Assembly: GCA_028285145.1 (NCBI GenBank)
Contig: JANQQC010000045.1
Span: 1-64,000 of the forward strand
Direction of reading: 5' to 3'
DNA: 64,000 nucleotides
From: Hyphomonadaceae bacterium
Lineage (GTDB): Bacteria; Pseudomonadota; Alphaproteobacteria; Caulobacterales; Hyphomonadaceae
Part shown: piece by piece, positions 31,105-35,802 of the stretch
How positions within the stretch are numbered: position 1 is the first letter of the stretch
Layout: each line of letters starts with the position of its first letter
Made by a program: the position numbers and the translations under genes
Notes under the pieces: generated by a model
The model's input: the letters and a program-made list of their open reading frames with translations, nothing else
Told to the model about the DNA's origin: nothing
Database searches by the model: none

Positions 31105-31158
31105 GCTTGCGCGGTCATGCCGCCATGTTAGCGTTCAGCCATAAAACTGGAGGGAACC

Positions 31159-31947
31159 ATGAAGCGTCTATTGTCCGCCGGCCTTTTGGTCATGGCGGTG
31201 TCGGCCTGCGCCGTTCAACCTGAAGCGCAGGAGCTGTCCGCGCCGGTCGAGGCCGAAACAGCGATGCCCGCCATCACAATCTATCATCTGGAAGGGCGTC
31301 GTTCTGAGCGCGTTGTCTGGCTCATGGAAGAGCTGGAGCTTCCCTATGAGCTGAAATTCGTGCGGGGCGATCTTGGCGCATCGATGCAGCTTGTCCGGGA
31401 TCTCGGTCATGGCATGCCAATGGTGCCGACCGTGACCTATGGGGACCAGATCCTCGTGGAGTCCGGGGCGATTATCGATGTGATCCTGACCCGGCATGCG
31501 CCGGACCAGCTCTTGCCTGCGATCGACAGTCCGTATTACCCGCACTATGTGAAATGGATGCATTATGCGGAAGGTTCGCTTTCCGCGCGTCTGTTCAGCG
31601 ACTATCGCGCCTGGCGGATTAATCCGCCGACTGAGCGCTCGCCGCTCGTGGATAGCGAAAATGTTGTTCAGTATGCTGAAGATTATCTCGCTGAAAACCC
31701 GTGGTTCGGTGGGCCTGAATTCTCTGCCGCCGACATCATGATGACCTTCCCGCTGAATGTTGCGACAGGCCTCAACCTCGTTGATTCAGAGCAGTTTCCC
31801 AACGTGGCGGAGTGGAAGACCCGGATCGAGGCGCGTCCGGCCTATCAGCGCATGCTCGCCAAGGCGCGCCCTGACGGGATGATCGGCAGTCTGCCCCCGG
31901 TTCAGCATCCGCCATCCGACAAGCGCGCGACTTTTCCGGGCCGCTAA
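31159..31947 (+). CDS. Glutathione S-transferase domain on a lipoprotein signal peptide
   Basis: The first 17 residues form a lipoprotein signal ending VSAC, with Ala at +2, which favours the outer membrane. After an acidic linker, residue 37 onward is a full GST: AITIYHLEGRRSERVVWLMEEL, then MVPTVTYGDQILVESGAI (cis-Pro and the ES glutathione contact), then a helical C-terminal domain with FSAADIMMTFPL. GSTs are normally cytoplasmic. An internal ATG at 31264 could give a soluble form. The outer ATG has a GGAGGGAA site, so the lipoprotein is the expected product. Confidence 0.88.
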   Translation: MKRLLSAGLLVMAVSACAVQPEAQELSAPVEAETAMPAITIYHLEGRRSERVVWLMEELELPYELKFVRGDLGASMQLVRDLGHGMPMVPTVTYGDQILVESGAIIDVILTRHAPDQLLPAIDSPYYPHYVKWMHYAEGSLSARLFSDYRAWRINPPTERSPLVDSENVVQYAEDYLAENPWFGGPEFSAADIMMTFPLNVATGLNLVDSEQFPNVAEWKTRIEARPAYQRMLAKARPDGMIGSLPPVQHPPSDKRATFPGR

Positions 31948-32036: not shown

Positions 32037-33254
32037 ATGGACAGAGTTCTCATTATTGGTGCCGGCGCGGCAGGATCTGTTGTTGCGAAAAAGTGCGCAA
32101 TGGACCGTGAGACCTTCAAACACATTCATCTGGCTTCGCGCCGGATTGAAAGCTGCGAGAAAGTTGCATCAGAAACGGTGACGCCCATCGAGATCAGCCA
32201 GGTGGACGCCGATGATGTCGAGGCAACAGCCGCGCTGATTGAACAGGTCAAGCCGGACCTCGTGATCAATATGGCGCTGCCCTATCAGGACCTACCCATC
32301 ATGGATGCCTGCCTTGAAGCAGGGGCGAATTACATGGACACGGCCAATTACGAACCCCGCGAAGAAGCGAAGTTCGAGTACAAGTGGCAGTGGGCCTATC
32401 AGGATCGTTTCAGAGAGGCCGGCCTGACAGCCATTCTCGGCTGCGGCTTCGACCCCGGGATGACCAATATTTACTGCGCCTACGCCCAGCAGGAAGGACT
32501 GTTTGACGAGATCGAGTATATCGACATCGTCGACTGCAATGCGGGTGATCATGGAAAGACGTTCGCCACGAACTTCAATCCGGAGATCAACCTTCGCGAA
32601 GTCACGCAGGACGGAAAATACTGGAAAAATGGTGATTGGATCGAGATCCCTGCGCTCTCAATCCGCACCATGATCGACTACCCGGAGGTCGGCCCGACCA
32701 TGTCTTACCTGATCTACCACGAGGAAGAGGAATCCCTCGTGAAGCACATCAAGGGCCTTAAGCAGATTCGTTTCTGGATGACCTTTGGCGACGAGTACAT
32801 CAAGCATCTCGATGTGTTCAAAAGCATCGGTCTGATCGGGCTGGAGCCGATCAAGCACAAGGGCATGGACATCATCCCGATCGAGTTTCTCCGGGACCTT
32901 CTGCCCGTGCCGTCTACGCTGGCTGAGGGCTATACGGGCAAGACTTCGATCGGCGTTATCCTGCGGGGCACGAAGGATGGCCAGCCGGTCACGAAGATGA
33001 TCTACAATGTCTCCGACCATGCGAAGACGAATGAAGAGGTCGGCGCGCAGGCGGTGTCCTATACGACCGGCGTGCCCCCCGTCTCCGGTGCGAAGATGTT
33101 CTTCGACGGCGTCTGGTCAGGGACCGGCGTGTTCAATGTTGAACAGTTCCCGGCCAAGCCATTTCTTGAAGATGTATCGGAGCGGGGCCTGCCCTTTCAC
33201 GTGAAGGATGTTTCTGCGAACGATCAAGCCGCACTCTTCGATGTGGACACCTAG
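32037..33254 (+). CDS. Carboxynorspermidine/carboxyspermidine dehydrogenase
   Basis: This saccharopine-dehydrogenase-like enzyme condenses aspartate semialdehyde with a diamine to give carboxy(nor)spermidine. The 405-residue protein has an N-terminal VLIIGAGAAGSVVAKKCA dinucleotide loop, VINMALPYQDLPIMDACLEAG, LGCGFDPGMTNIYCAYA and the C-terminal PPVSGAKMFFDGVWSGTGVFN. All of these are typical of the family. GGAG lies eight bases before ATG 32037. The partner decarboxylase gene is 1.4 kb downstream on the same strand, with three minus-strand genes between. Confidence 0.93.
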   Translation: MDRVLIIGAGAAGSVVAKKCAMDRETFKHIHLASRRIESCEKVASETVTPIEISQVDADDVEATAALIEQVKPDLVINMALPYQDLPIMDACLEAGANYMDTANYEPREEAKFEYKWQWAYQDRFREAGLTAILGCGFDPGMTNIYCAYAQQEGLFDEIEYIDIVDCNAGDHGKTFATNFNPEINLREVTQDGKYWKNGDWIEIPALSIRTMIDYPEVGPTMSYLIYHEEEESLVKHIKGLKQIRFWMTFGDEYIKHLDVFKSIGLIGLEPIKHKGMDIIPIEFLRDLLPVPSTLAEGYTGKTSIGVILRGTKDGQPVTKMIYNVSDHAKTNEEVGAQAVSYTTGVPPVSGAKMFFDGVWSGTGVFNVEQFPAKPFLEDVSERGLPFHVKDVSANDQAALFDVDT

Positions 33255-33688
33255 CAGCATCCGCCTTCGCTAAGCGGTTTCGGAACATGGGAGGTGATGT
33301 CCCGCTGGTCCTGACCATAGGTCGGGATCGTCTCCATCGAGTGGAACATTTCCCAGATCACGCCCTGAGGGTCGGCCGCCCAGTGCTTGTTGGAGTGCGC
33401 GTAGCAGCAATTGGCACCCGGCTCCGCAAGCGTGGACTGCTCTGCCGACACAAGCGCATTGTTCAACGCTTCGAGGTCTTCGTCGCTGTCGACCTGTATG
33501 CCGACATGATCAACTCCGCGGGTTGCGCCGTCGCGCTGGCTGACGGCAAGATTGATGCGGGGATCATCCAGCATCCATTTCATGTAATCGGGTTTCTCGA
33601 CCGTTGGTTCGATTCCGAACAAGGCCGTGTAGAATCGTTTCGTCGCATCGAGATCGGCGGCGCTAATATGGATATGCAGGCGTTTCAT
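33251..33688 (-). CDS. arsI: ArsI/CadI-type VOC metalloenzyme (C-As lyase family)
   Basis: ArsI is a ferrous dioxygenase that splits carbon from trivalent organoarsenicals. The 145-residue protein has HIHISAADLDATKRFY, GVDHVGIQV with metal His, the defining Cys pair in ANCCYAHSNKHWAADPQG, and IWEMF with the final Glu ligand. A further CC ends the protein. The start overlaps the stop of arsR by four bases, so regulator and enzyme are coupled. CadI (cadmium-induced) is the alternative name for the family. The stop overlaps the convergent dehydrogenase gene by four bases. Confidence 0.92.
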   Translation of the reverse strand: MKRLHIHISAADLDATKRFYTALFGIEPTVEKPDYMKWMLDDPRINLAVSQRDGATRGVDHVGIQVDSDEDLEALNNALVSAEQSTLAEPGANCCYAHSNKHWAADPQGVIWEMFHSMETIPTYGQDQRDITSHVPKPLSEGGCC

Positions 33689-34014
33689 CTAGGCCTCTTG
33701 AGGTGCAGATCTGTCTGGGTTGAAGGGAATACGCCCTTGCAGCAATCCTTGATGAGGAAGCTGTGCAGCGTTCGGATGGCATCGTAGCTCGCGGTCGAGA
33801 CGACCTCTCGGCCGCGCTTTTCCTGCTCGACAAGGCCCGCCTGTGCGAGGGCCTTGAGGTGGTGGGCAAAGGTCGAAGCGGGAACGCCAAGCGAGTCTCT
33901 CAACTGCCCGACCGTCAGCCCGCAGCACCCGGCCTGAACCAGTTTGCGGAGTACTTTCACCCGGTTCTCGTGACCGAGGGCGGCGAATTGGGCGGCGGCG
34001 TTTGCGTCATTCAT
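33685..34014 (-). CDS. arsR: ArsR-family transcriptional repressor
   Basis: The 109-residue winged-helix protein has FAALGHENRVKVLRKLVQAG and the recognition region VPASTFAHHLKALAQAGLVEQ. Cysteines occur as CC in QAGCCGLT and again as DCC near residue 93, where several ArsR subtypes bind trivalent arsenic. The DNA upstream carries an AT-rich inverted repeat fit for its operator. There is no ribosome site before the ATG, only a T-run, so translation may be leaderless or weak. Confidence 0.92.
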   Translation of the reverse strand: MNDANAAAQFAALGHENRVKVLRKLVQAGCCGLTVGQLRDSLGVPASTFAHHLKALAQAGLVEQEKRGREVVSTASYDAIRTLHSFLIKDCCKGVFPSTQTDLHLKRPR

Positions 34015-34656: not shown

Positions 34657-35802
34657 ATGACAGACTCATCTCAGCTTTCCGACGTGCAAACGCCGGTTTT
34701 CATTCTGGATATCGGCCGGTTGCAGAAAAACTTGGCAGTCGCAGCGCGCATTCGCCAGGAAACGAGCGCGAAAATTCTGCTCGCGACCAAGGCCTTTGCG
34801 ATGCCGGCTGCCTTTCCCTATATGCGCCCGCATCTGGACGGGACGACAGCGAGTGGGGTTCATGAGGCAAGGTTGGGCGCGACAGAGTTCGGCCGCGATG
34901 TTCATGTCTACTCGCCGGCCTATACCGATAGCAGTCTGCAGCAACTGGCTGGCATCGCCACCGATATCTACTTCAACTCGGCAGAGCAGCTGGCGCGTTT
35001 CGGTCCGGCGGCGCGAGGCATGGCGGCGCGGATCGGGCTTCGGATTAACCCGGGCTATTCAAACGCAACACTTGGCGGAGCGCTATATGATCCGTGTGCG
35101 CCTTATTCGCGATTTGGCGAGGTGGCCACCCGCCTCGGTGAGGTGGACTGGGGAGAGGTCGACACCCTCCATGTCCACGCCCTGTGCGAGTCGCTGCATG
35201 ATGGCTCGCTCGGCCTGATCGAGCATGTGACAGAACACTTCGCAGATCAGATCAGGCAGGTGAGCGCCGTGAATTTCGGCGGCGGGCACTTCATCAACGC
35301 GGAAGGCTATGATGTGAACGCCGTTATTAAGGCCATCGGGGCCTTCCGGGAAGAATTCGGGGTTGATGTGATCCTTGAACCCGGGGCAGGGCTGGTGGTT
35401 GGGACGGGCGAGCTACATGCACGCGTCATTGGCTTGCATGAGAACGACAAACCGATTGCCATCCTGGATGTCTCAGCCTCGACCCACATGCCAGATGTTC
35501 TCGAAGCGCCGTACCGTCCGCAAATCGAAGGCGCAGGCGAAGTCGGCGAGCATGCCCATTCCTACATTCTGGCTGGGAATACCTGTATGACCGGGGACGT
35601 CATCGGCGAGTATTCCTTCGCCGATCCCCTGAAATCGGGCGACCAGCTGATCTTCACCGACCAGATGCACTACAGCTTTGTGAAGACGAACACCTTCAAC
35701 GGAACGCCGCTCGCCAATCTGGCCATCCGCCATGAGGGCGGGGCCGTCGAGATGGTCTCTGATTTTGGATATGAGGCGTTTCGGCAACGCCTCGGGCGCT
35801 AG
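34657..35802 (+). CDS. nspC: Carboxynorspermidine/carboxyspermidine decarboxylase NspC
   Basis: This is a PLP-dependent fold-III decarboxylase completing alternative (nor)spermidine synthesis. The 381-residue protein shows TPVFILDIGRLQKNL, the PLP Lys in ILLATKAFAMP, RINPGYS, HVHALCESLHDGS, VNFGGGHFINAEGYD, EPGAG and the C-terminal MHYSFVKTNTFNGTPLANLAI. Its partner dehydrogenase is upstream at 32-33 kb. The end overlaps the convergent histidine kinase gene by four bases. Confidence 0.95.
   Translation: MTDSSQLSDVQTPVFILDIGRLQKNLAVAARIRQETSAKILLATKAFAMPAAFPYMRPHLDGTTASGVHEARLGATEFGRDVHVYSPAYTDSSLQQLAGIATDIYFNSAEQLARFGPAARGMAARIGLRINPGYSNATLGGALYDPCAPYSRFGEVATRLGEVDWGEVDTLHVHALCESLHDGSLGLIEHVTEHFADQIRQVSAVNFGGGHFINAEGYDVNAVIKAIGAFREEFGVDVILEPGAGLVVGTGELHARVIGLHENDKPIAILDVSASTHMPDVLEAPYRPQIEGAGEVGEHAHSYILAGNTCMTGDVIGEYSFADPLKSGDQLIFTDQMHYSFVKTNTFNGTPLANLAIRHEGGAVEMVSDFGYEAFRQRLGR

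Follow-up and report, generated by a model that had tools for sequence, protein, structure and literature searches.

The window analysed here, a stretch of 64,000 nucleotides from a Hyphomonadaceae bacterium (contig JANQQC010000045.1), contains an open reading frame at positions 31159-31947 of the plus strand, on which the parts of this gene described below also lie. Its coordinates, frame and length (262 amino acids plus stop) were confirmed, and its product carries a glutathione S-transferase (GST) fold behind a putative lipoprotein export signal. The outer ATG at 31159 is preceded by the ribosome-binding site GGAGG (31149-31153) at a spacing of 5, as seen both in the sequence and in an SD scan. 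Residues 1-17 read MKRLLSAGLLVMAVSAC, followed by AVQPE. The first 16 of them, MKRLLSAGLLVMAVSA (31159-31206), correspond to a predicted signal peptide, which is supported by the sequence and by the coding constraint of this extension in relatives, and in which an n-region with two basic residues (MKR...) precedes a hydrophobic core (hydrophobicity of 2.58 over 9 residues) and the motif VSAC-A. The latter holds the lipobox V14-S15-A16-C17 (31198-31209), with Cys17, the sole cysteine of the whole 262-residue protein, as the predicted lipidated residue and Ala18 at position +2. The features of a signal peptidase II substrate (basic n-region, hydrophobic core and lipobox with its invariant cysteine) are thus present, and as far as can be judged from the sequence the N-terminus is a standard lipoprotein signal; the predicted export of the protein as a lipoprotein is strongly supported. 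A linker (residues 18-38; 31210-31272), whose sequence is unconserved among relatives, leads from the putative lipid anchor to the GST domain.

The domain itself (residues 39-262; 31273-31944) shows the two parts of the canonical, cytosolic-type GST superfamily, a thioredoxin-like N-domain and a helical C-domain, with GST_N, GST_N_2, GST_N_3 and GST_C all above their Pfam cut-offs. An AlphaFold model of residues 36-262 (227 residues) reached a mean pLDDT of 93.9, with low confidence at the C-terminal tail, and a structure search with this model returned 998 aligned chains, every one with Z of at least 8, all 50 matches listed being GST-like. Alignment with solved GSTs runs from end to end, and Foldseek agrees with the assignment. 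The GST fold of the product is certain. The best match, both by sequence (5.1e-24 with a profile) and by fold (Z 24.1, rmsd 2.5 over 203 residues), is 4hz4, a GST of Actinobacillus pleuropneumoniae with 26% identity, which differs in having a Ser of its own at the position of Arg47 and in its deposited chain (217 residues), which starts with the domain. The original prediction of a lipoprotein signal (VSAC, Ala at +2) that leads into a full two-domain GST, with a good ribosome site at the outer ATG, was in this way confirmed by the sequence, Pfam and the structure model.

Bacterial GSTs and glutathione are treated as cytoplasmic, and relatives of the gene were collected in searches none of which used a signal peptide as a criterion. 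Among 61 genomes (the window's own and 60 relatives), members with at least 47% identity were found in 15 of the 37 genomes of the same family, and in one of the 24 genomes from elsewhere in the order. Scanning 84,980 species genomes yielded 151 candidate stretches, of which 109 were confirmed as relatives and 80 loci were kept, while an order-wide sample was positive in 16 of 299 genomes and a phylum-wide draw in 2 of 398, one of these being the window's own; the exported family is therefore rare. Five loci from the order-wide sample all carry signals, some of them repeating sequences from the scan of 84,980 genomes. No clade member was found among 72,556 plasmid records. Matches at E 1e-20 or better came from 27 of these records, all below 60% identity (31-38% in the 20 listed), and in one of them (H4), where the match starts from residue 2, the annotated start is that of the domain. 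After removal of exact duplicates, the set comprised 95 clade sequences with domain identities of 49-100% and an outgroup of 22 GSTs with at most 38%.

N-termini were readable in 93 of the 95 members, the remaining two (L015 and L129) being cut by contig ends and excluded from the signal counts, as was L036, a copy divided between two frames. The genome of L015 bears a lipobox N-terminus on another contig (L037). Classes were assigned by our own sequence rules, in which the twin-arginine type means RR ahead of a hydrophobic stretch, a looser definition than the strict Tat consensus; one member (L137) was counted under this type and not as lipobox because its Cys sits within a signal of the twin-arginine type. 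On these rules an export-type N-terminus is found in 91 of the 93, with 45 lipobox, 28 plain signal peptide and 18 twin-arginine-type members. Further GSTs with lipoprotein signals, which the original prediction proposed to look for, thus do occur, and relatives without a signal peptide, which it regarded as counting against export, amount to two sisters on the tree (L106 and L116), both starting at the domain. Export as such holds across the clade, with many of the relatives' signals being plain or of the twin-arginine type, which the original prediction had overlooked. Signal-bearing members occur in Hyphomonadaceae, Caulobacteraceae, Sphingomonadales, Steroidobacteraceae, Pseudohongiella and other Gammaproteobacteria. 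In the lipobox members the Cys lies 14-28 residues ahead of the domain, and none of the 45 has Asp at +2, which fits outer-membrane sorting by the rule of E. coli, a rule not established for alphaproteobacteria. All 22 outgroup GSTs have a possible start 1-7 residues from the first strand. For three of these (L018, L040 and L041) the rule chose long starts, two of which it labelled signal peptides; in all three, an ATG preceded by a ribosome site is present at the domain. Domains free of cysteine make up 83 of the 91 exported members versus 16 of the 22 outgroup GSTs (p 0.011, uncorrected for kinship), a modest lowering of Cys content.

The possibility that the long start is a mis-call, the upstream frame being open by chance and only a short cytoplasmic form being made, draws on the tendency of GC-rich DNA to keep frames open and on the two members that have the short form only. 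Against it, the outer start comes with a ribosome-site match of at least 4 bases in 76 of the 91 signal-bearing members, and the lipobox Cys is nearly invariant in one alignment of relatives (A1), besides the export-type features of the 91. Moreover, in 36 close pairs the extension gave a raw pN/pS of 0.53 (0.12 for the domain), with 412, 293 and 613 differences at the three codon positions. The extension is therefore coding sequence under relaxed but clear purifying constraint, on which ground we count it as translated, the relaxation being what is expected of a signal peptide and linker. Altogether, these data render a mis-called start extremely improbable.

A different proposal for the same region was that one gene serves two locations, the lipoprotein form starting at ATG 31159 and a cytoplasmic form at an internal ATG directly before the domain (Met36; 31264-31266). 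This ATG exists, in frame, with GAGG as the only ribosome-site match upstream at a spacing of 11, and 59 of the 91 signal-bearing members likewise have an in-frame ATG no more than 8 codons from the domain, mostly at position -3 or -5 (outgroup starts lie mostly at -1 or -2). However, the remaining 32, spread over all three signal classes, have no such ATG, and a ribosome-site match of at least 4 bases accompanies 13 of the 59 near-domain ATGs (22%) versus 84% of the outer starts, compared with a background of 18% (in-frame codons picked at random) and 8% (ATG codons within the domain). Met36 is more simply read as part of an M-P-rich linker or as a possible remnant of the initiation codon used by a cytoplasmic ancestor. 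As a second start it is unsupported, and a dual location is very unlikely for this gene and unlikely as a general rule, with room left for single species. Of the overall interpretation first given to this DNA, lipoprotein export is hence retained, with a signal in nearly all readable relatives, and the two locations via Met36 are given up.

A tree of 103 sequences, made by a quick method and with long outgroup branches, separates clade from outgroup by a branch with SH-aLRT of 100. Along this tree the signal type changes 19-20 times (shuffles gave a mean of 54), and counting its starred branches alone the minimum is 6 changes for the lipobox, 7 for the plain and 4 for the twin-arginine type. 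The nearest neighbour of the window gene, L058, comes from a sphingomonad and bears a plain signal peptide, as does L134, which is adjacent to the lipobox-bearing Pseudohongiella sequences L130 and L131, while the copies of Caulobacter and most of those of Phenylobacterium are of the twin-arginine type. With the signal type exchanged about 19-20 times and export retained, the conserved trait would therefore be the location and not the lipid; this swapping of routes with the destination kept is our strongest argument that the destination matters. The product of the window gene is very probably exported, and export of the whole clade, whether by a lipoprotein, a plain or a twin-arginine-type signal, is strongly supported by these N-termini. 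The members without a signal speak against this reading, but L106 and L116 are sisters, and a single loss therefore accounts for both.

These two sequences, from Caulobacteraceae, show GRRSDR in place of GRRSER and offer a natural test of what changes upon return to the cytoplasm. Several loci of Hyphomonadaceae type (L011, L013, L092, L101, L105, L110, L132 and L136) carry a pair of exported GST genes, arranged head to tail, the two copies usually belonging to separate branches of the clade. The split copy L036 (1618-2421; genome G009, contig C1, near 1276460-1277241) is a second exported-GST copy from a more distant subfamily that lies in two frames and looks decayed.

The catalytic Tyr, Ser or Cys usual at the start of helix 1 is absent from the domain. 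All 95 clade members carry there the motif R47-R48-S49 (31297-31305), whereas position 47 in the outgroup is Ser in 20 of the 22 sequences, Thr in one and Gly in another; R48, as well as Ser49 two residues from position 47, is found in 21 of the 22. Since the scan of 84,980 genomes used the pattern RRSER[IV]VWL among others, the 74 sequences first seen in it are biased towards the Arg motif, which is nevertheless present in 21 sequences (a truncated one among them) found without the pattern and in the loci of the order-wide sample. In profile alignments R47 falls opposite the first Ser of two motifs, QSCSHR in 4hz4 and SRAS in 4nhw, and R48 opposite the Arg of the latter. Farther along the chain, the glutathione-site landmarks P90 (31426-31428), at the cis-Pro position and so named by position and not by geometry, and E101-S102 (31459-31464) are kept in 94 of the 95 members, the remaining one being masked by N. 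The change of Ser to Arg at the usual catalytic position was missed by the original prediction.

An arginine at this site has precedents in two GST classes. The chi-class enzyme SynGSTC1 of Synechocystis has the same fold, and its R11, which helps to lower the thiol pKa and corresponds to Arg48, holds the gamma-Glu carboxylate, the R11A mutant showing a kcat 75 times lower and an optimal pH raised by one unit, according to PMC9599700. The same paper reports that SynGSTC1 shares SRAS with SMc00097 (4nhw), its Ser being without thiol contact, that the first position of the chi motif is Ser and in a few cases Thr, and that R34 of the eta-class AtuGSTH1-1 of Agrobacterium (2ycd, 3lq7) is the equivalent of R11. 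The latter enzyme also lacks the classic Tyr, Ser or Cys and relies on Arg at this position, R34A being inactive according to PMC3319563. From these known Arg-type GSTs it follows that the helix-1 Tyr, Ser or Cys is not universal among GSTs. On alignment grounds, R48 would be a catalytic arginine of a known kind, and R47 is the feature that appears new.

SynGSTC1 shows SRAS where the clade has RRSE, its chain has 192 residues versus 227 in our model (shortened helices alpha4 and alpha5 being a chi-class trait), and the match reaches only 37 bits; AtuGSTH1-1 is likewise a weak sequence match (47 bits). PMC9599700 never uses the term 'signal peptide', nor does PMC3319563 mention the periplasm, and as far as their passages show both classes share the Arg principle but not the location, chi also being without the RRSE motif. 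Membership in the chi class was rejected, the SRAS motif being unmatched (its Arg is kept as R48 in all 95 members, its first Ser replaced by Arg). Two other families, the YfcG-type GSH-dependent disulfide bond oxidoreductases (NF010579; 33.2 bits versus a cut-off of 332) and FzlA (NF050814; 29.6 versus 300), were discarded for scores far below their cut-offs. The 50 structure matches listed include no chi structure; we take 7pka and 8ai8 to be those of SynGSTC1. The beta-class GST B1-1 of Proteus mirabilis (1pmt) is alike in fold (Z 20.1) and differs by its catalytic Cys. This enzyme is found partly in the periplasm and is not known to have a cleavable signal; in the parts of the literature checked for its location the periplasm is not mentioned. 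Searches of the open-licence PMC literature yielded no account of a family of exported GSTs in bacteria, which leaves absence in print unshown. The novelty consequently lies in the extracytoplasmic location, which is new to us, together with R47 in the clade, the GST fold and the Arg principle being already known.

Altogether, the reading we lean towards, by a modest preference, is that of an envelope GST exported via Sec, tethered by a lipid and performing glutathione chemistry with Arg48 and Arg47. After passage through Sec, the protein would receive its lipid at Cys17, and the flexible linker of about 20 residues would hold the enzyme to a periplasm-facing membrane, most likely the inner leaflet of the outer membrane. 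Glutathione leaked or pumped from the cell would most likely be bound in the periplasm, where Arg48, aided by Arg47, may lower the thiol pKa in place of the usual Ser, Tyr or Cys, so that electrophilic small molecules would be conjugated or reduced before crossing the inner membrane. Lipidation, the final membrane, glutathione use, the reaction and any substrate are all inferred. That the exported protein performs glutathione chemistry at all is, from its sequence, somewhat better than an even proposition.

Indeed, with the usual catalytic Ser lost in all 95 members, transferase activity could be lost too. The protein might then be an exported pseudo-GST, binding a ligand or a partner protein of the envelope and not working on glutathione, in the way that the GST homologue FzlA works by binding FtsZ in the cytoplasm. 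FzlA, to whose family there is a weak match, is an example of recruitment of this fold, and the supply of periplasmic glutathione is uncertain. On the other hand, that match lies far under the cut-off, the domain is under strong purifying selection (pN/pS of 0.12), and the conservation of P90, E101 and S102, beside that of Arg48, means that loss of glutathione use is not expected, which makes a pseudo-GST rather unlikely.

With respect to supply, the genome has a glutathione synthetase above cut-off and therefore makes glutathione. It also encodes two gamma-glutamyltranspeptidases, a family whose bacterial members are as a rule located in the periplasm or secreted, according to PMC10295655. 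The search of the genome for a dedicated glutathione exporter found none, all CydC-like matches being below cut-off, and this, with the lack of a neighbour pointing to a substrate, weighs against the glutathione-enzyme reading.

Glutathione could also serve a periplasmic disulfide reductase or oxidoreductase that works as YfcG does, on small disulfides or those of proteins, and does not conjugate. After 4hz4, the nearest folds include YfcG and the Nu-class disulfide-bond oxidoreductases (Z about 21-22), but fold ranks so close cannot separate GST classes, and the YfcG-type family score is an order below its threshold. YfcG and Nu-class enzymes are cytoplasmic, and YfcG-like enzymes do without a Cys in their own chain; the clade has its many Cys-free domains, and the periplasm is the place where disulfides are made and broken. 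This alternative we hold to be improbable.

The conjugating or reducing envelope enzyme would acquire a wider meaning as a dedicated extracytoplasmic class of glutathione transferases, in which the replacement of Ser by a second Arg and the move to the envelope happened on one branch, the location being kept since then through repeated exchange of lipoprotein, Sec and twin-arginine signals. We regard this as a tentative proposal, somewhat short of even. If it were true, periplasmic glutathione-dependent detoxification would be a first line of defence. A clade of which nearly all members leave the cytoplasm, by three interchangeable routes, suggests that selection holds the location itself, and raises the question of periplasmic glutathione as a working cosubstrate and of a conjugation or reduction chemistry of the envelope's own. 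It also provides a natural comparison for Arg replacing Ser in thiol activation.

The neighbourhood gives little guidance as to the substrate. The genes next to the window gene encode a rhomboid protease, ZapE and a carboxynorspermidine synthase, none of them suggestive of function, and a scan for promoters and terminators between the ZapE and GST genes stayed at or below the level of shuffled sequence. When the neighbourhoods of the 80 loci and the window (81) were clustered, no conserved neighbour pointing to a substrate was found. The recurring neighbours, several of whose loci are close relatives, are a PQQ/cytochrome c quinoprotein (12 of 81), a TonB-dependent receptor (10 of 81) and a regulator-like protein (9 of 81). 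Aldehydes from periplasmic alcohol dehydrogenases may be considered as substrates, as a lead. The quinoprotein was dropped as a basis for the mechanism, the window's genome being without it (one match, at 8.9e-6).

The quinoprotein and GST genes are no more than 6 kb apart in L058-L060, L075, L063, L093, L094, L107, L115, L119, L125 and L129, and the former directly follows the latter, 91-94 bases past its stop, only in the Ponticaulis loci L063 and L093. In L096, L101, L118, L126 and other Hyphomonadaceae the GST gene is often found between two genes that resemble those of glycyl-tRNA synthetase subunits, which we presume them to be from their sequence. Finally, between a carboxynorspermidine synthase-like gene (32040-33254) and a carboxynorspermidine decarboxylase-like gene (34657-35802) of the window there is, at 33254-34014 on the minus strand, a gene for a glyoxalase/VOC-family protein, with GGCC at its C-terminus, paired with that of an ArsR-type regulator, the start and stop codons of the two overlapping.
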